Source: Pseudomonas sp. LRP2-20 (GTDB lineage Bacteria; Pseudomonadota; Gammaproteobacteria; Pseudomonadales; Pseudomonadaceae). From it: DNA of 64,000 nucleotides. The position numbers were made by a program, and so were the translations under genes. This document shows, one piece after another, positions 3,804-12,885 of the stretch. The stretch lies in the NCBI RefSeq assembly GCF_024349685.1, contig NZ_AP025944.1, forward strand, positions 5,535,001-5,599,000, read 5' to 3'. The notes under the pieces were generated by a model that was given only the letters and a program-made list of their open reading frames with translations, searched no databases and was not told the DNA's origin. How positions within the stretch are numbered: position 1 is the first letter of the stretch; every line of letters begins with the position of its first letter.

Positions 3804-3828
3804 TGATCCACCTTTGATGTTGGGTTTA

Positions 3829-3923
3829 CCGGCCTCTTCGCGGGCAAGCCCGCTCCCACAGGATTTCTATCGCCCTCGGGCGTACACAGTACCTGTGGGA
3901 GCGGGCTTGCCCGCGAAAAGGCC
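3829..3923. repeat. Inverted REP pair (GCGGGC-AA-GCCCGC variant)
   Basis: Two REP units face each other: GGCCTCTTCGCGGGCAAGCC... ending CTCCCACAGG, and its reverse complement beginning CCTGTGGGAG. Both copies carry the same stem, GCGGGC-AA-GCCCGC. The spacer between them is about 30 bases. It separates the lipoate-ligase gene from the end of trpC. Confidence 0.9.
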
Positions 3924-4803: not shown

Positions 4804-5849
4804 GCTTCGTTCTCCACTTTGAATACTGCAGTAAAGGCGCCCAGTTCCTGCAGCTTCTCCCAGGCCAACCCGGTGTGCAGTACGTCGTGGGCCAGTTCCA
4901 CGCCCCCCTTCAAACTCATGGCATGGTCAGCGGCATACAGCGCCGCGCCAGCATTGAGCACGATCATTTCGGCAGCCTTCTGACCGTTTTCGGTCTTGCG
5001 CCGGCCCAGGGCATCGCGGATCAGCTCCAGCGAGGCCTGTGGCGTCTCGACGGCCAGGCCATGCAGGCTCTGGCTCTTCATGCCGAGGTCTTCGGGTTCG
5101 ACCCAATACTCACTGATCTCGCCGTTCTTCAGCTCGGCGACGAAGGTTGGCGCAGCCAGGCTGAACTCGTCCAGGCCATCCTTCGAATGCACCACCAGCA
5201 CATGCTTGCTGCCCAGGCGCTGCAGCACCTCGGCCAGCGGACGGCACAGCGCCTGGGTGAACACGCCGACCACCTGGTGCTTCACTCCGGCCGGATTCGT
5301 AAGCGGGCCGAGCATGTTGAACAGGGTACGCAGCCCCAGATCGCGACGCGGGCCAGCGGCATACTTCATGGCGGTGTGATGGCTTTGCGCGAACATGAAA
5401 CCTATCCCCAAGCTGTCGATGCAGCGGGCGACCTGGGTCGGGGTCAGGTTCAGGTAGATGCCAGCGGCTTCCAGCAGGTCGGCACTGCCGCTCTTGCCAG
5501 ATACCGCACGGTTGCCGTGCTTGGCCACGGTGCAGCCGGCGGCGGCGAGGACGAACGCCGACGCGGTGGAAACATTGAAGATGTTGGCACCATCACCGCC
5601 GGTACCGACGATGTCGACCACGCCATCGAGGCTTTTCAGCTCGACCTTGTCAGCCAGCTCGCGCATCACCGAGACCGCACCGACGATCTCGTCGATGCTC
5701 TCGCTCTTCATGCGCATGCCCATCAGGAAGGCACCGATCTGCGCTTCGCTGCACTGCCCCGTCATGATCTGGCGCATGACATCGCGCATTTCATCGGTGC
5801 TGAGGTCCAGGTGGCCGACGATGCGGCTCAACGCGCTCTTGATATCCAT
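4800..5849 (-). CDS. trpD: Anthranilate phosphoribosyltransferase
   Basis: A 349-residue TrpD joining anthranilate to phosphoribosyl pyrophosphate. The PRPP loop [28 protein letters not shown] is intact, followed by [21 protein letters not shown], and the anthranilate-contacting [27 protein letters not shown]. Size is normal for the free enzyme. It lies nine bases after trpG and overlaps trpC by four bases, the middle gene of a tight three-gene operon. Confidence 0.97.
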
Positions 5850-5858
5850 GATCGATCC

Positions 5859-6452
5859 TTAGCGGCGGCCGCCGGTCTGCTTGAGGAAGTTGGCGAACAG
5901 CTCGTGGCCCTGCTCGGTGAGGATGGACTCGGGGTGGAACTGTACCCCTTCGATGTTCAGGGTCTTGTGGCGCAGGCCCATGATCTCGTCGACCGAACCG
6001 TCTTCATGAGCAGTCCAGGCGGTGACTTCCAGGCAATCCGGCAGGGTTTCGCGCTTGACCACCAGGGAGTGGTAGCGGGTCACCGTGAGCGGGTTGTTGA
6101 GCTCGGCGAACACGCCGAGGTCGCGGTGGTGCACCGGGCTGGTCTTGCCGTGCATGACCTGACGGGCACGCACCACATCACCGCCGAAGGCCTGGCCGAT
6201 GGACTGGTGGCCCAGGCATACGCCGAGGATCGGCAGCTTGCCGGCAAAGTGCAGGATGGCTTCGATGGACACGCCGGCTTCGCTTGGCGTGCACGGCCCG
6301 GGGGAAACGACGATGCGCTCAGGGTTGAGGGCTTCGATCTCGGCGATGGTCATTTCGTCATTGCGAATGACCTTGACCTCGGCACCCAGCTCGCCAAGGT
6401 ACTGAACGACGTTGTAAGTGAATGAGTCGTAATTGTCGATCATCAGTAACAT
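5859..6452 (-). CDS. trpG: Anthranilate synthase glutamine amidotransferase subunit
   Basis: A 197-residue class-I amidotransferase supplying ammonia to TrpE. The triad is visible: the nucleophilic Cys in [16 protein letters not shown] near residue 79 and the His/Glu of [12 protein letters not shown] near the C-terminus. The oxyanion motif [13 protein letters not shown] is also present. In pseudomonads this subunit often also serves p-aminobenzoate synthesis (PabA role); that is family knowledge. An AAGAGG ribosome site precedes the start. A long leader region with a Trp-rich peptide lies upstream, so the operon is probably attenuated. Confidence 0.96.
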
Positions 6453-6479
6453 CGGGCTAAACCTCTTGAATCTACTGAC

Positions 6480-6595
6480 TTTAAAAAACGAACCTTCCTA
6501 CATCAGATACAGACACGGCTTTGCCACGAAGGGCGGTCGCTAAACGAACAGGAAGGCAAACGGGGACGGGCCGGACAGGCCGGCAGGAGATAAAG
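6480..6595 (-). promoter_or_regulatory. trpGDC leader RNA: hairpins and T-run
   Basis: On the minus strand, after the leader-peptide stop, comes CTCCTGCC, then a hairpin GCCGG-CCTGT-CCGGC (6570-6584). Further on, CCTTCCT can pair with AGGAAGG about 48 bases later, which is followed within four bases by TTTTTT (6483-6488). This would be a terminator-like fold placed about 30 bases before the trpG start. The pairing is weak and has a long loop, so the exact attenuator structure is not settled by eye. Confidence 0.5.
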
Positions 6596-6682
6596 TCAGG
6601 CGCGCCAACGCCAACGGGCGTGGGCCTTGATAACGCGCATCAAGAGTTTGCTGACGATCAACACAGGATAAGTCTCGCTCAT
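6596..6682 (-). CDS. Tryptophan leader peptide ahead of trpGDC
   Basis: A 28-codon frame beginning MSETYPV and ending in the 14-residue block MRVIKAHARWRWRA then TGA; an internal ATG at 6638-6640 would give only that block. Two Trp codons separated by one Arg codon sit just before the stop, the classic arrangement for ribosome-mediated attenuation. The C-terminal block matches the last 14 residues of gph upstream of trpE at 12 of 14 positions, which strongly supports it being translated. No strong ribosome site is visible before either ATG. Attenuation of trpE and trpGDC in P. putida has been reported in the literature. Confidence 0.75.
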   Translation of the reverse strand: MSETYPVLIVSKLLMRVIKAHARWRWRA

Positions 6683-6827
6683 ACTTGCACGCACAGTAGC
6701 CTACCGGGGCGGCGGGCGCAATATGCCCGTAAACACGGGGAAACGAATGGACTTGGAAGCGATGCACAGCGATTTGCTAAGGTCGATCGGGTTGCCATCA
6801 TAAAAACAAAGAAAAGGATGTTCTCTG

Positions 6828-8708
6828 ATGCGAAAAGCTCCACTGCTGCGTTTCACCCTCGCCACATTAGCCCTGGCCTGCAGCCAGGCCATCGCTGCGC
6901 CCTCGCCTTACTCCAGCCTGATCGTGTTTGGCGACAGCCTCAGCGACGCTGGGCAGTTTGGCGGGGTGCGTTTCACCAACCGTGATGCCAATGGCAACTA
7001 TGCCCCGGTGTCGCCGATGATCCTCGGCGGGCGGCTGGGTGTAGACCCGGCAGAGCTGGGCCCATCCACCTCTGCGCTCAACCCGGCGCTGGGGCTTCCC
7101 GACGGCAACAACTGGGCGGTTGGCGGCTATACCACACAACAGATCCTGGACTCGATCCTCAGCACGTCCGAAACGGTCATCCCACCCGGGCGACCGGGCG
7201 CTGGGCAAGTGCTGCGTGAAAAGCCAGGCTACCTGGCCAACGGCCTGCGCGCCGACCCAAACGCGCTGTACTACCTGACCGGCGGCGGTAATGACTTCCT
7301 GCAAGGCCTGATAAACAGCCCGGCCGACGCCGTGGCCGCCGGTGCCCGCCTGGCCGCCAGTGCCCAGGCCCTGCAGCAAGGTGGCGCCCGCTACATCGTG
7401 GTCTGGCTGCTGCCCGACCTCGGGCTGACGCCGAACTTCAGCGGCACACCACAGCAAAACCCGCTGTCACTGCTGTCCGGTGCATTCAATCAGTCGCTGC
7501 TCAGCCAGCTGGGGCAGATTGATGCCGAAATCATCCCGCTGAACATCCCGGTGCTGCTGAGCGAGGCTTTGGCCAGCCCCAGTCAGTTCGGCCTGGCCAC
7601 CGGCCAGAATCTGGTGGGTACCTGCTACAGCGGAGAAGGGTGCGTGGAAAACCCGATCCATGGCATCAACGGCCTTTCGCCAGACCCGACCAAACTGCTG
7701 TTCAACGACTCCGTACACCCGACTATCGCCGGCCAGCAACTGATTGCCGATTACGCCTATTCGATCATCTCTGCCCCCTGGGAGCTGACCTTGCTCCCGG
7801 AAATGGCCCACGCCAGCCTGCGCGCGCACCAGGACGAACTGCGCAACCAGTGGCAAGCGCCCTGGCAGGCAGTTGGCCAATGGCAAGCCTTCGTCAGCAC
7901 CGGCGCCCAGGACCTGGACTTCGACAATCAGCGCAGCGTCGCCAGTGCTGACGGTCGCGGCTACAACCTGACCCTCGGTGGCAGTTACCGACTGAACGAC
8001 GCCTGGCGCCTCGGCCTGGCCGGTGGCGTGTACCGGCAGAAGCTGGAAGCCGGTGAACAGGATTCGGACTACAAGCTCGACAGCTACCTGGCCAGCGCCT
8101 TCGCCCAATTCCGTCAGGACCGCTGGTGGGCCGATGCCGCGCTGAGCGCCGGCCATCTTGATTACCACGACCTCAAGCGCACCTTCGCACTTGGCGTCAA
8201 CGACCGCAGCGAGAAGGGCGACACCGATGGCGAGGCCTGGGCCGTGACTGCCCGGCTGGGCTACAACCTGGCGGCCGAGAAAAGCCGCTGGCAACTGGCC
8301 CCCTTCATCAGTGCCGACTACGCGCGGGTGAAGGTCGATGGCTATGACGAGAAGAGCGGGCGTTCGACGGCGCTGAGCTTCGATGATCAGGAACGGACGT
8401 CGCGGCGCCTGGGCGTCGGGCTGCTAGGCAGCGTGCAGGTACTGCCGAGCACCAGGCTGTTCGCCGAGGTGGCGCAGGAACATGAGTTCGAGGATGACCA
8501 GCAGGACGTGACCCTGCACTTGAAGACATTGCCAGCCAATGACTTCACCTTGACCGGGTATACGCCGCACAGTGATTTGACTCGGGCGAGTCTGGGGGTA
8601 AGCCATGAGCTGGTGGCGGGGGTGCATCTGCGCGGGAACTACAACTGGCGCAAGAGTGATGAGCTGACGCAGCAGGGGGTGAGCCTGGGCGTCAGTGTCG
8701 ACTTCTGA
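6828..8708 (+). CDS. estP: Autotransporter GDSL esterase (EstA/EstP)
   Basis: A 626-residue outer-membrane esterase. A signal peptide ([20 protein letters not shown], cleavage probably after AIA) is followed by a GDSL hydrolase domain: [13 protein letters not shown] holds the nucleophilic Ser, GGGNDF is block III, and [11 protein letters not shown] the catalytic Asp/His. From about residue 340 onward the sequence alternates polar and hydrophobic residues as in a 12-strand beta barrel and ends in Phe, the autotransporter signature. An AAAAGGA ribosome site precedes the ATG. Homologues affect rhamnolipid production and motility in P. aeruginosa. It is divergent from trpG. Confidence 0.95.
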
Positions 8709-8714
8709 ATCGCC

Positions 8715-8814
8715 GGGGCCACTTTGTGGCCCTTTCGCGGCTGAAGCCGATCCTACAGGAGCCACACATGCCTGTAGCAGCGGCTTTAGCCGCGAAAGGG
8801 CTGCGCAGCAGCCC
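8715..8814. repeat. REP pair framed by two 3-base-loop hairpins
   Basis: A degenerate REP (GCGGCTGAAGCC) faces an intact one (GCGGCTTTAGCCGC). It is flanked on the estP side by GGGCCAC-TTT-GTGGCCC (8716-8732) and on the trpE side by GGGCTGC-GCA-GCAGCCC (8798-8814). Both hairpins immediately follow the stop of their convergent gene and may act as terminators, though neither has a T-run. Confidence 0.8.
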
Positions 8815-8822
8815 CAATCGGT

Positions 8823-10304
8823 TTACTTGACGGAAGTCTGCTCGGCCAAGGCCACCGCACGGAACATCGCCCGGCGCTTGTTGATGGTCTCTTCCCATTC
8901 CAGCGCCGGCACCGAATCGGCGACAATACCGCCACCGGCCTGCACATGCAGTTCGCCGTTCTTGATCACCGCAGTGCGGATAGCAATTGCGGTATCCATG
9001 TTGCCATTCCAGGCAAAGTAGCCGACCGCACCACCATAGACGCCACGCTTGACCGGCTCCAGCTCGTCGATGATCTCCATCGCACGGATCTTCGGCGCGC
9101 CCGACAAGGTGCCCGCCGGCAGGATCGCCCGCAGCGCATCCATCGCCGTCAGGCCTTCGCGCAGCTGCCCGGTCACGTTGGACACGATATGCATTACGTT
9201 GGAGTAGCGCTCGATCACCATCTTCTCGGTCAGGCGCACACTGCCGGTCGACGACACCCGGCCCACGTCGTTGCGGCCCAGGTCGATCAGCATCAAGTGC
9301 TCGGCGATCTCTTTTTCGTCCGACAGCAGGTCGTCTTCCAGCGCCCGGTCGGCTTCCTCGGTAGCCCCACGCGGGCGGGTACCGGCAATCGGCCGTACGG
9401 TGACCAGGTTGTCTTCCACCCGCACCAGCACTTCCGGCGAACTGCCGACCACATGGAAGTCGCCGAAGTTGAAGAAGTACATGTACGGCGTCGGGTTGAA
9501 GCAGCGCAGCGCGCGATACAGGTCGATCGGAGCAGCCTTGAAGTCGATCGACATGCGCTGCGACGGCACAACCTGCATGCAGTCGCCGGCCAGGATGTAT
9601 TCCTTGATACGACCCACCGCATTCTCGTAATCGTCACGGGTGTAGCTGGAACGGAACTCCGGTTCGGCCGCCATCGGCCCGCTCAGGTCCAGGCCTCGGC
9701 GTGGGGTAATGGGCTGGCGCAGTTTTTCCAGCAGGCCTTGCAGGCGGGCCTGACCTTGCTCGAAAGCCTGCTCATCAGCCGGGTCGACCAACACGATGGC
9801 GTGCATCTTGCCCGCCAGGTTGTCGAACACCACCACCGCATCGGAGACCATCAGCAGGATATCCGGCACGCCCAGCGGATCCGGATTCGGGCTTGCACCC
9901 AGGCGCTTTTCCACATACCGCACGCAGTCGTAGCCGAAGTAACCGACCAGGCCACCGTTGAAACGTGGCAGGCCTGGGATGTCAGCGACCTTGTAACGGT
10001 CCTTGAAACTTTCGACGAAGGCCAGCGGGTCCTCGACGTCGTGGCTTTCCACCTCGACACCATCCTGCAGGATGCTCACGTGGTAGCCATGCACGCGCAT
10101 CACGGTGCGCGACGGCAGGCCGATCATCGAGTAACGGCCCCACTTCTCGCCGCCCTGCACCGATTCGAGCAGGTAGGAGTTGGGCTGATCAGCCAGTTTC
10201 AGGTAGATCGACAGCGGCGTGTCGAAGTCGGCCAGGGTTTCACAGGCCAAAGGGATGCGGTTATAGCCGGTAGCGGCCAGGCGCAGGAATTCTTCGCGGG
10301 TCAT
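8823..10304 (-). CDS. trpE: Anthranilate synthase component I
   Basis: A 493-residue chorismate-binding enzyme forming anthranilate with TrpG. The N-terminal [18 protein letters not shown] carries the Ser of the tryptophan feedback site (family LLES motif). The catalytic half contains [53 protein letters not shown] and [19 protein letters not shown]. The start [10 protein letters not shown] at 10304 is chosen because GAGG lies eight bases upstream and homologues begin there; the frame opens eight codons earlier. It is far from trpGDC, with estP between. It follows gph by only 70 bases, and the end of gph doubles as a Trp leader peptide. Confidence 0.97.
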
Positions 10305-10349
10305 GGGTAGCCTCGTGGCAAGCAGCAATAGGGTCGGGCAAGCGGACGG

Positions 10350-10365
10350 GCCGGCAGGCGCCGGC
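10350..10365 (-). promoter_or_regulatory. Hairpin between leader stop and trpE
   Basis: GCCGGC, loop GCCT on the minus strand, GCCGGC: a perfect six-base stem nine bases after the gph/leader stop codon and about 45 bases before the trpE ATG. CTCCTGCC precedes it and CCCGTCC follows, both also found around the equivalent hairpin of the trpG leader. No T-run follows, so how it would stop transcription is unclear. Confidence 0.55.
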
Positions 10366-10374
10366 GGGCAGGAG

Positions 10375-10419
10375 TCAGGCGCGCCAGCGCCAACGGGCCA
10401 GGGCCTTGATGACTTTCAT
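10375..10419 (-). promoter_or_regulatory. Trp-Arg-Trp leader block ahead of trpE, in frame with the gph 3' end
   Basis: The last 14 codons of gph read [14 protein letters not shown] and stop. This is the same peptide as in the trpG leader except at residues 2 and 7. It can be read either as the tail of gph or as a separate leader starting at the ATG at 10417-10419, which has no clear ribosome site. Two Trp codons are placed three codons before the stop, consistent with sensing of charged tRNA-Trp. Confidence 0.75.
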
Positions 10420-11193
10420 CCAGAATTTGCCAGTGACCGCCACGGTGGACTCTCTGTCTTGGGAGGCTTGAAGGTCCGCCAACGTTATCCCAGTGGCCGG
10501 GTCTGCGCAACCGGGCAGCAGTGCGCGCAGGTCGTCGACCACCAGGCTGGGGGATTCCTCGGTGATTGGCCGGCCATGGTTGTAGCCGTAGGTGAGGCCT
10601 ACACATTGCACCCCGGCCGCCTTGGCCGCCAGCACATCGCTGCGCGAATCACCGACGAACAGCGACTGCTGCGGGCTGACACCGGCCATCTGCATGACGA
10701 ACAGCAGCGCTGCCGGGTCGGGCTTTTTCTGCGGCAAGGTATCGCCGCCGATGATCCAGCGGAAATAGCGGCCGATCTTCATCTGGTCCAGCAACGGCGC
10801 GACGAAACGCTCCGGCTTGTTGGTGATCAGCGCCATTTCCACCCCCTGCTTCTGCAGCCAGCGCAGGGTGTCCTTCACACCGGGGTAGAGCACGGTGAGC
10901 TCATGGCTTTCGGCATAGGCCTCCATGAACAGCGCCAGGCCTTTTTCGGCCAGCGCATCGTCCACGGCATCATGCTCGATGCCACCTGCCAGTGCGCGGC
11001 GCACCAGGACCTGGGCGCCGTTGCCAACCCAGTGGCGCACCGCCTCAAGACCCGCGGGCGGGCGCCCCAGTTCGAGCAGCATGCGGTCGACGGCGGCAGC
11101 CAGGTCGGGGACCGAGTCGATCAGGGTACCGTCCAGATCGAACATCACCAGCCTGGGCAGCGTCCCCGGGAACAGCTGCTCGAAGCCACTCAT
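10375..11193 (-). CDS. gph: Phosphoglycolate phosphatase (HAD superfamily)
   Basis: A 272-residue HAD-type phosphatase that removes phosphate from 2-phosphoglycolate. The nucleophile motif [16 protein letters not shown], the [11 protein letters not shown] motif II with its Thr, the conserved [11 protein letters not shown]ys, and the metal-binding [16 protein letters not shown] are all present. The catalytic fold is complete by about residue 225. The remaining 45 or so residues have no obvious role in the enzyme and end in the Trp-Arg-Trp leader block used by trpE. Its ATG overlaps the rpe stop by four bases, so rpe, gph and trpE form one transcriptional line. Confidence 0.93.
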
Positions 11194-11864
11194 GGGCGGG
11201 CCTGGGCCAGTTCGGCGCGCATCTTGGCGATGACTTCCTGGTAGTCCGGGGCGTTGAAGATCGCGGAACCGGCCACGAAGGTGTCGGCGCCAGCGGCAGC
11301 GATCTCGCGGATGTTGTTGACGTTGACGCCACCGTCGATTTCCAGGCGGATGTCACGACCGCTGGCGTCGATCAGCGCGCGGGCTTCGCGCAGCTTGTCG
11401 AGGGTGCCGGGGATGAACTTCTGCCCGCCGAAGCCTGGGTTGACGCTCATCAGCAGGACCATGTCGACCTTGTCCATCACATACTTCAGTGCATCCAGGC
11501 TGGTGGCCGGGTTGAACACCAGGCCGGCCTTGCAACCGCCGTCCTTGATCAACTGCAGCGAACGGTCGATGTGCTGCGAGGCTTCCGGGTGGAAGGTGAT
11601 GTAGGTGGCGCCGGCCTCGATGAAGTCGCCGATGATGCGGTCAACCGGGCTGACCATCAGGTGCACATCGATCGGCGCGGTCACGCCGTACTTGCGCAGC
11701 GCGGTGCAGACCATCGGGCCGATGGTCAGGTTGGGTACGTAGTGGTTGTCCATGACATCGAAATGGACGATGTCGGCACCCGCGGCCAGAACCTTGTCGA
11801 CGTCCTCGCCCAGACGGGCGAAATCGGCAGAGAGAATGGAGGGGGCAATAGCGTAGGGCTGCAT
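11190..11864 (-). CDS. rpe: Ribulose-phosphate 3-epimerase
   Basis: A 224-residue TIM-barrel epimerase interconverting ribulose- and xylulose-5-phosphate. Metal and substrate motifs are visible: [36 protein letters not shown] (metal His and Asp), [27 protein letters not shown] and [12 protein letters not shown]. The start at [11 protein letters not shown] is preceded by AGGTG and matches the family N-terminus; the upstream open frame runs into a REP and is not coding. It is the first gene of the rpe-gph-trpE line. Confidence 0.96.
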
Positions 11865-11940
11865 GGCGCACCTGTTGGCAGAATCACGGTGGCGCGCATT
11901 GTAACTCAGGGAAGCGGATGAGCGCTGATTAGCATCAACC

Positions 11941-12046
11941 TGTACCGGCCTCTTCGCGGCTAAAGCCGCTCCCACAGGTTCTGTGCACATCTGACGACCT
12001 GCGCAATCCCTGTGGGAGCGGCTTTAGCCGCGAAGAGGCCGGTACA
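11941..12046. repeat. Inverted REP pair (GCGGCT-AA-AGCCGC variant)
   Basis: TGTACCGGCCTCTTCGCGGC... and its mirror image, both with stem GCGGCTAAAGCCGC and the CTCCCACAGG tail, separated by roughly 35 bases. The outer TGTACCGGCC/GGCCGGTACA ends also match. It lies between the rpe start and the end of the permease gene. Confidence 0.92.
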
Positions 12047-12057
12047 GGCAGCCATCA

Positions 12058-12885
12058 TCAGGCGGGTTGTTGCGTCCTGAGCTTCTCGCTACGCCCGCGC
12101 AACCACTCCAGGGTCAGCAACAGCACCACCGAGAAAGCGATCAGCAAGGTCGCCGCCGCCGCGATGGTCGGGCTGAGGTTCTCGCGAATGCCGCTGAACA
12201 TCTGCCGTGGCAGGGTCGCCTGCTCCGGCCCGGCAAGGAACAACGTGACCACCACTTCATCGAACGACGTGGCAAAGGCGAACAGCGCACCCGAGATCAC
12301 CCCAGGGGCAATCAGCGGCAAGGTCACCCGACGGAAGGTCAGCAACGGCGACGCGCCCAGGCTGGCCGCAGCACGTACCAGGTTGTAGTTGAAGCCCTGC
12401 AAGGTCGCCGACACGGTGATGATGACGAACGGCACACCCAGCACCGCGTGCACCAGGATCAGCGAGATGAAGCTGTTGCCCATGCCCAAGGGGGCAAAGA
12501 ACAGGTAGCTGGCCACGCCGATGATCACCACCGGCACCACCATCGGCGAAATCACCAGCGCCATCACCAGCGACTTGCCGGGGAAATCGCCACGGGTCAG
12601 GCCGATCGATGCCAAGGTGCCGAAGACCATCGCCAACACGGTGGCCGCCGGCGCGACGATGATGCTGTTCTTCAGCGCCCGCATCCACTCGGCCGAGGCG
12701 AAGAAGTCGTGGTACCACTGCAGCGAGAAGCCCTGCAGCGGGTACACCAGGAAGCTGCCACTGTTGAAGGACAGCGGCACGATCACCAGCACCGGCAGCA
12801 CCAGGAACAGCAGGATCAGGCCGCAAAGGGTGCGCAGGGTGTAGAACCACACCCGTTCGACGGGCGACATGTAGGGGCTCAGCAT
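12058..12885 (-). CDS. agtD: ABC transporter permease, PotC-like (AgtD-like)
   Basis: A 275-residue inner-membrane permease with six predicted helices. The ABC coupling motif is present as VRAAASLGASPLLTFRRVTLPLIAPGVISG. It closes a four-gene set with order ATPase, binding protein, permease, permease. In P. aeruginosa the genes next to rpe/gph/trpE with this order are agtABCD, which import 5-aminovalerate and 4-aminobutyrate; the name rests on that remembered order and on the adjacent two-component system. A generic polyamine substrate is the alternative. Confidence 0.85.
   Translation of the reverse strand: MLSPYMSPVERVWFYTLRTLCGLILLFLVLPVLVIVPLSFNSGSFLVYPLQGFSLQWYHDFFASAEWMRALKNSIIVAPAATVLAMVFGTLASIGLTRGDFPGKSLVMALVISPMVVPVVIIGVASYLFFAPLGMGNSFISLILVHAVLGVPFVIITVSATLQGFNYNLVRAAASLGASPLLTFRRVTLPLIAPGVISGALFAFATSFDEVVVTLFLAGPEQATLPRQMFSGIRENLSPTIAAAATLLIAFSVVLLLTLEWLRGRSEKLRTQQPA

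Follow-up and report, generated by a model that had tools for sequence, protein, structure and literature searches.

The window analysed here is a stretch of 64,000 nucleotides from Pseudomonas sp. LRP2-20, and all coordinates refer to it. The gene for phosphoglycolate phosphatase, gph, lies on the minus strand (10375..11193) and encodes a protein of 272 amino acids. In a profile search, Gph matches the curated model NF009698 over profile positions 1-272 of 272 with 560.6 bits (cut-off 466), and it is 99% identical to the Gph of a genome named P. putida. The protein is comprised of a HAD domain (approximately residues 11-226), a linker (227-250) and a tail (251-272), which corresponds to a leader peptide and is included within the 272-position model. 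None of the solved Gph relatives listed (60 of 61) aligned beyond residue 228. Codons 259-272 form a block of 14 residues, and the TGA stop (10377-10375, minus strand) follows directly. A hairpin, GCCGGC-GCCT-GCCGGC (10350..10365, minus strand), starts 9 nt past this stop. The next gene is trpE, encoding anthranilate synthase component I (8823..10304, minus strand; 493 aa; TIGR00564, 575.7 bits). Its ATG (10304) is 70 nt from the gph stop, and its ribosome-binding site, GAGG (10311..10314, minus strand), stands in a recurrent CACGAGGC context. The succession of gph tail, stop, GCCGGC hairpin and trpE that was described in the initial annotation agrees with these coordinates, the frame and the spacing.

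The frame of the trpE leader peptide, leader 1, occupies 10375..10443 on the minus strand. It is 22 amino acids long, begins with GTG (V read as M) and is in frame with gph codons 251-272. A nearly identical 14-residue block had been noticed ahead of trpGDC, and it is indeed there: the frame before trpG ends in MRVIKAHARWRWRA, with two residues differing. The 21-base WRW pattern CGNTGGCGNTGGCGNGCNTGA has two exact matches in the genome from which the window was taken (6.03 Mb), one in the gph tail and the other in the trpG leader. An exact match was found in 35 of the 57 genomes searched, this one included, and all 35 are among the 36 that belong to the genus of the window. The recurrence of the tail block is beyond chance.

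Gph occurs with and without the tail in the family of the window, the Pseudomonadaceae. In a survey of 148 evenly drawn genomes searched with NF009698, 145 loci were read; G094, G159 and G173, with weak gph matches only, were left out. Gph is tail-less (225-261 aa) at 95 of the 145 loci and tail-bearing, or fused (272-280 aa, ARWRWRA end), at 50, of which 13 belong to genus group g1, 2 to g23, 17 to g30 and 18 to g33. There is a trpE at 143 of the loci. A leader was recognised by its pattern at 137 loci, 50 fused and 87 unfused; L116, L129, L144, L162, L173, L174, L178 and L181 are outside the leader counts, having diverged frames, no frame or a contig end. At unfused loci the leader is a separate small frame, which occurs in all three phases relative to gph and mostly 64-82 nt before trpE. 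The interval from leader to trpE is 116-213 nt, against the usual 70 or so, in some g30 genomes (L053, L055, L056, L061, L064 and L068). Loci L144, L162 and L174, all of g28, have diverged W-bearing frames before trpE, such as ..VWHRWRCCA, and the two g28 genomes searched (G062 and G103) gave no good match to trpG. W-rich frames in other phases (SWWSPANSG and similar) were discarded as leaders, being the same DNA in another reading frame.

Outside the family, the order-level set consists of the 26 best loci, by TrpE likeness, of 111 genomes. All 14 gph genes found there are unfused (225-241 aa), and a WRW-bearing small frame precedes trpE at 14 of the 26 loci, counted without a chance control. 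On these counts within and outside the family, the stand-alone leader is likely the older state. A tree of TrpE and the Gph core was computed from 104 rows, 100 loci with a limited number per genus and 4 outgroups, as a quick tree without bootstrap. All 40 fused rows fall in one clade of 41 (SH-aLRT 97), and the 41st row, G150, is unfused. The distribution of the fusion on the tree takes a minimum of two changes, which with the outgroup are read as one gain and one loss. The program warned of long branches joined outside the fused clade.

These data uphold the view that the trpE leader peptide, Trp codons included, forms the tail of gph; in unfused relatives it is a stand-alone frame. Conservation of the tail in gph of related species was also borne out, since the tail is kept in all of the 80 named loci, although these are the best 80 of 546 matches to a tail-bearing query and the list favours fused genes. 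The direction of the loan has to be turned around. Gph had been thought to lend its tail to trpE, whereas most of the relatives read have the leader by itself and, according to the tree, gph was extended into it once.

All 137 family loci, all 80 named loci and all 14 of the second leaders, those before trpG, have an in-frame GTG 18-36 codons ahead of the leader stop. It is preceded by a purine-rich, Shine-Dalgarno-like tract in 117 of the 137, in the 80 and in the 14, respectively; in the window the tract is GAGAG (10450..10454, minus strand). The initial annotation had placed initiation at an internal ATG. This ATG occurs in 122 family loci, 80 named loci and 9 second leaders and has a Shine-Dalgarno-like tract in none (0/122, 0/80 and 0/9), whereas the in-frame GTG has one, in a comparison that is slightly uneven because GTG was allowed over a range of codons and ATG at one position only. 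In every one of the 80 named loci, the outermost GTG lies 22 codons ahead of the leader stop. Its counterpart in the window is gph codon 251 (10443), and all 88 fused genes have GTG at codon 251. Judging by these features, the leader most likely starts at this GTG rather than at the ATG. TGG stands at codons 258, 268 and 270 in 88 of 88 fused gph genes.

A -35-like hexamer, TTGCGC (10505..10510, minus strand), is separated by a 17-base spacer from a -10-like hexamer, TAACGT (10482..10487, minus strand). The TGC of the former is gph codon 229 and is the counterpart of the gph TGA stop (TTGATT) in several unfused relatives. A degenerate and permissive pattern of this kind (mostly TTGATT or TTGCNN, 17 bases, TANNNT), counted without a chance control, matched all 50 fused and 85 of 87 unfused loci, and the pair of promoter-like hexamers is present in 80 of 80 named loci. 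A scan with the strict consensus found no promoter at leader 1, the hexamers matching the sigma-70 consensus poorly, so the case for the putative leader promoter is one of conservation. GGTTGC (gph codons 228-229) is free of inferred substitutions among 89 fused sequences; the -10 region has few, and the count at some nearby linker sites reaches 23. In fused genomes the leader is nested inside gph, and its putative promoter probably is too.

The hairpin after the leader stop is above chance. It was examined in 190 leader-to-trpE sequences, 179 of them distinct, which comprise the family loci with 60-82 nt to trpE and the 79 named loci with a located trpE start. Of the 179 distinct sequences, 173 have a stem at the hairpin site; in 20 rounds of mononucleotide shuffling the count averaged 11.6 and never exceeded 20. 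The stem starts 9-10 nt past the stop in 144. There are 46 different arm pairs, paired by construction because the finder reports fully paired stems only. When 180 aligned sequences were analysed with alifold and mutual information, the hairpin was not recovered; kinship probably dominates the alignment, and the alifold miss is perhaps a result of the variable length of the hairpin. Folds of single sequences are not unusually stable (z of -0.51 and -0.06).

The position of the gph stop in unfused relatives suggests how the fusion arose. The stop overlaps a promoter-like hexamer in 49 of 85 unfused loci, as TGA (TAA once) in the -35 element of 10 loci and as TAG, TAA or TGA in the -10 element of 39. 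The GGT TGC of fused genomes aligns with GGT TGA in several unfused relatives. With the gph stop overlapping promoter-like elements, one substitution can be enough to fuse gph to the leader; the simplest route would have been such a substitution in a stop codon lying within the -35-like element.

In a few genomes the fusion appears to have been lost again. The Gph of G150 and G402 ends in another frame shortly past the leader GTG, apparently by a frameshift. The Gph of G009 and G385 has 235 residues, ends inside the -10 box and is 84-85% identical to that of the window. All four genomes, of which only G150 is placed on the tree, keep the leader, the promoter-like hexamers and the usual distance to trpE. 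In a scan of 298 genomes of the genus, at least 254 were over the cut-off of the tail-bearing NF009698 among the matches listed. Of the 44 genomes not over it, 26 were read (28 handles, with G308 and G445 over the cut-off after all), and G419, G373 and G533 are below the cut-off yet still fused. In G449 (L369/L372), a one-contig genome, gph is frameshifted near residue 165, and the leader and promoter-like site are intact. G308 (L343 and L370) has two matches to the gph model about 1.5 kb apart, by duplication or as an assembly artefact, in a genome of 8.7 Mb with 9% contamination.

Selection was compared along 88 fused gph genes of 272 codons (1500 pairs), which are mostly named loci, from a list favouring tail-bearing matches. 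The ratio pN/pS, 0.18 in the core, rises to 0.90 in the linker (229-249) and falls to 0.67 in codons 250-257 and 0.06 in codons 258-272. The linker is almost neutral as a protein. The corresponding values of pS are 0.498, 0.277, 0.099 and 0.087, and 15-codon windows of the core range from 0.364 to 0.642. The tail is therefore constrained at silent sites too and behaves like regulatory sequence.

The linker also appears to have kept its reading frame. Its length is 1 mod 3 in 50 of 50 fused loci, and 85 unfused loci are split 32/27/26 over the three classes. On the tree, the 40 fused rows show at least 5 changes of linker length and no change of frame; the 51 unfused rows show at least 28 changes of length and 17 of frame. 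The 370 linker substitutions in the 89 fused sequences would be expected to yield approximately 6.35 stop gains if unconstrained, and none was observed. Fused loci, however, are necessarily in frame, and a length of 272 was the criterion for choosing the 89 sequences, so part of the in-frame and no-stop signal comes from the choice of sequences. When the two lineages that apparently lost the frame by a frameshift are added in a rough count, 5 of 7 changes are in-frame against 11 of 28, and the contrast is no longer striking. In-frame indels and missing stops were given up as proof of frame selection, weakened as they are by the re-separated genomes and the length-based sampling, and selection for an open frame between gph and the leader is only suggested.

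A second leader precedes the trpGDC operon. The frame of leader 2 (6596..6664, minus strand) encodes 22 amino acids from a GTG start (V read as M), VLIVSKLLMRVIKAHARWRWRA. It has the layout of leader 1, with a -35-like TTGCGC (6716..6721), a 17-base spacer, a -10-like TACTGT (6693..6698) and a hairpin after the stop, GCCGG...CCGGC (6570..6584), all on the minus strand. The first gene of the operon, trpG (5859..6452, minus strand), was identified by a profile match. Given its likeness to leader 1 and their common layout, leader 2 would be a copy of it. Farther along, a distal stem followed by a T run (AGGAAGG, then TTCGTTTTTT) after leader 2 was considered as a terminator and set aside: among 31 leader 2 regions the best stems are not alike, and this one is absent from the minimum-energy fold of the window.

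The two trp units of the window are separated by a gene on the plus strand (6828..8708), which by its look is a putative esterase or autotransporter-like gene. Of 21 fused-clade loci tested, the window among them, 8 have a relative of this gene between trpE and trpG, and at other loci of that set trpE adjoins trpG. Inverted repeats with cgcggctaaagccgctcccacagg and its kin, which we take to be REP-like, lie between genes at 11941-12046, 8721-8823 and approximately 3826-3920; the first two gave sub-threshold Rfam matches, probably by chance.

The presence of the second leader follows the arrangement of the operon. Among 128 genomes with readable sequence before trpG, it was found in 31 of the 43 with a separated trpG and in none of the 85 in which trpG is less than 100 nt from trpE. 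The 12 genomes with a separated trpG and no second leader are 9 genomes of g39 together with G182, G080 and G058. These counts suggest the rule that a second leader is found only where trpG and trpE are separated, as would be expected of a Trp sensor if each separate trp transcript needs its own. In a published 3'-end map of P. aeruginosa, premature 3' ends are reported in the trpGDC leader beside a potential uORF with a GTG start, and they were predicted as regulatory in one treated condition only (PMC8297930). These ends fit the model of a Trp leader.

Taken together, it is highly probable that an older, stand-alone, Trp-sensing leader of trpE existed and that gph, having lost its stop in one clade, now reads through the promoter-like site, the linker and the leader. 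Loss of the gph stop in one Pseudomonas clade would have led to in-frame read-through as far as the leader's own stop. When charged tRNA-Trp is scarce, a ribosome that started at the GTG would stall at UGG codons 258, 268 and 270. The stall would lie just upstream of the conserved hairpin and would raise the expression of trpE. Ribosome-mediated attenuation is the mechanism best supported by the sequence features. The consequence for gph is secondary, neither ancestral nor essential.

The last step of the putative switch is less well defined. In a scan of 10250-10650, no intrinsic terminator was found between leader and trpE, nor any with a T run. In place of a mutually exclusive antiterminator/terminator pair there is one conserved hairpin, for which alifold and masked folding gave no alternative partner, and Rfam found no leader family, Trp leader included, in 5800-12100 at E values up to 5. 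The ribosome was masked with assumed footprint sizes and positions. With the mask at the stop, the hairpin drops to 0.27 from 0.61-0.63, mainly through the masking of its own first bases; on these assumptions, the hairpin would be overlapped by a ribosome at the stop and not by one stalled at Trp. As a variant of the attenuation model, the final step may be a Rho-dependent or translational switch, a proposal that we regard as evenly poised. The lack of a T-run terminator in the scanned interval speaks for it, as do the premature 3' ends reported beside the potential trpGDC uORF of P. aeruginosa (PMC8297930), but the accessibility of the trpE Shine-Dalgarno sequence shows no shift in the masked folds (0.40 unmasked, 0.44 in all masked states).

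The place of gph translation in sensing was weighed separately. The initial annotation had tied trpE expression to it, and ribosomes finishing Gph could be the main sensors, trpE being coupled to gph synthesis. In fused species, ribosomes translating gph necessarily traverse the Trp codons, and the frame-keeping lengths of the fused linkers and the lack of stop gains, set against the number expected, point the same way, but part of that signal stems from loci in frame by definition and from sequences chosen by length. The leader, moreover, has its own GTG start with a Shine-Dalgarno-like tract and is the same in unfused relatives, and genomes separated by a frameshift retain both leader and promoter-like site. 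Gph translation is thus not required for sensing, because unfused relatives and re-separated genomes keep the leader; it is not needed for the leader to exist or, as far as the sequence indicates, to start. The tail does not make Gph uniquely sensitive to Trp either, because the core already has three Trp (residues 55, 112 and 146). Gph ribosomes as main sensors are, on this evidence, quite improbable. Wherever a read-through message occurs in a fused species, the ribosomes translating gph on it cannot avoid the Trp codons of the leader, and coupling through such messages may occur. That in-frame continuity is itself selected, with Gph ribosomes acting as second, promoter-independent sensors on read-through messages and one leader serving two ribosome streams, is a tentative idea, which we consider unlikely. 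If it were true, Gph synthesis and trpE expression would be linked under tryptophan starvation.

Less probable still is selection of the tail as protein, as a functional C-terminal addition to Gph whose likeness to the trpG leader is incidental. The tail does lie inside the curated Gph model and is nearly invariant in the 80 named loci. Yet most relatives read have this peptide as a separate frame, it occurs again before trpG, tail-less Gph is the commoner form (95 of 145 loci), the linker ahead of the tail is nearly neutral (pN/pS 0.90), and constraint on silent sites is far stronger in the tail than in the core. A stand-alone Trp leader overrun by gph accounts for the conserved tail of an annotated enzyme, absent from the solved relatives listed, and illustrates how a protein can take in a regulatory micro-peptide. 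It also predicts the positions of the trpE promoter and of the leader start, and the fused, unfused and re-separated genomes form a natural test set for the effect of the fusion on tryptophan control.

Among known systems, a close parallel is the ribosome-mediated attenuator of the E. coli trp operon, trpL. The leader of the window resembles it in being short, in having closely spaced Trp codons with a hairpin just 3' of them and in standing ahead of trpE. Unlike trpL, it has no intrinsic terminator and no Rfam Trp leader match, its Trp codons come right at the end of the frame with a WRW spacing, and the frame is nested, in phase, within an upstream gene. Regulatory signals inside the coding end of a neighbouring gene have a precedent in the ampC promoter, which overlaps the end of the upstream gene frdD; unlike that case, the leader peptide is here also shared, in the same frame. 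For trpL / peTrpL of Sinorhizobium we know of no fusion to an upstream gene. It is, like the leader described here, a Trp leader peptide of a proteobacterium (PMC7298713). No overlap of gph with a leader was found among the titles and abstract openings listed for an open-licence library. The overlap may be new, or it may already be contained in the work of Olekhnovich and Gussin (2001, J Bacteriol 183:3256), which, according to its title, reportedly deals with attenuation of trpE and trpGDC in P. putida. That system concerns the same genes in the same species group, and to it the present analysis adds the distribution of the leader across the family.
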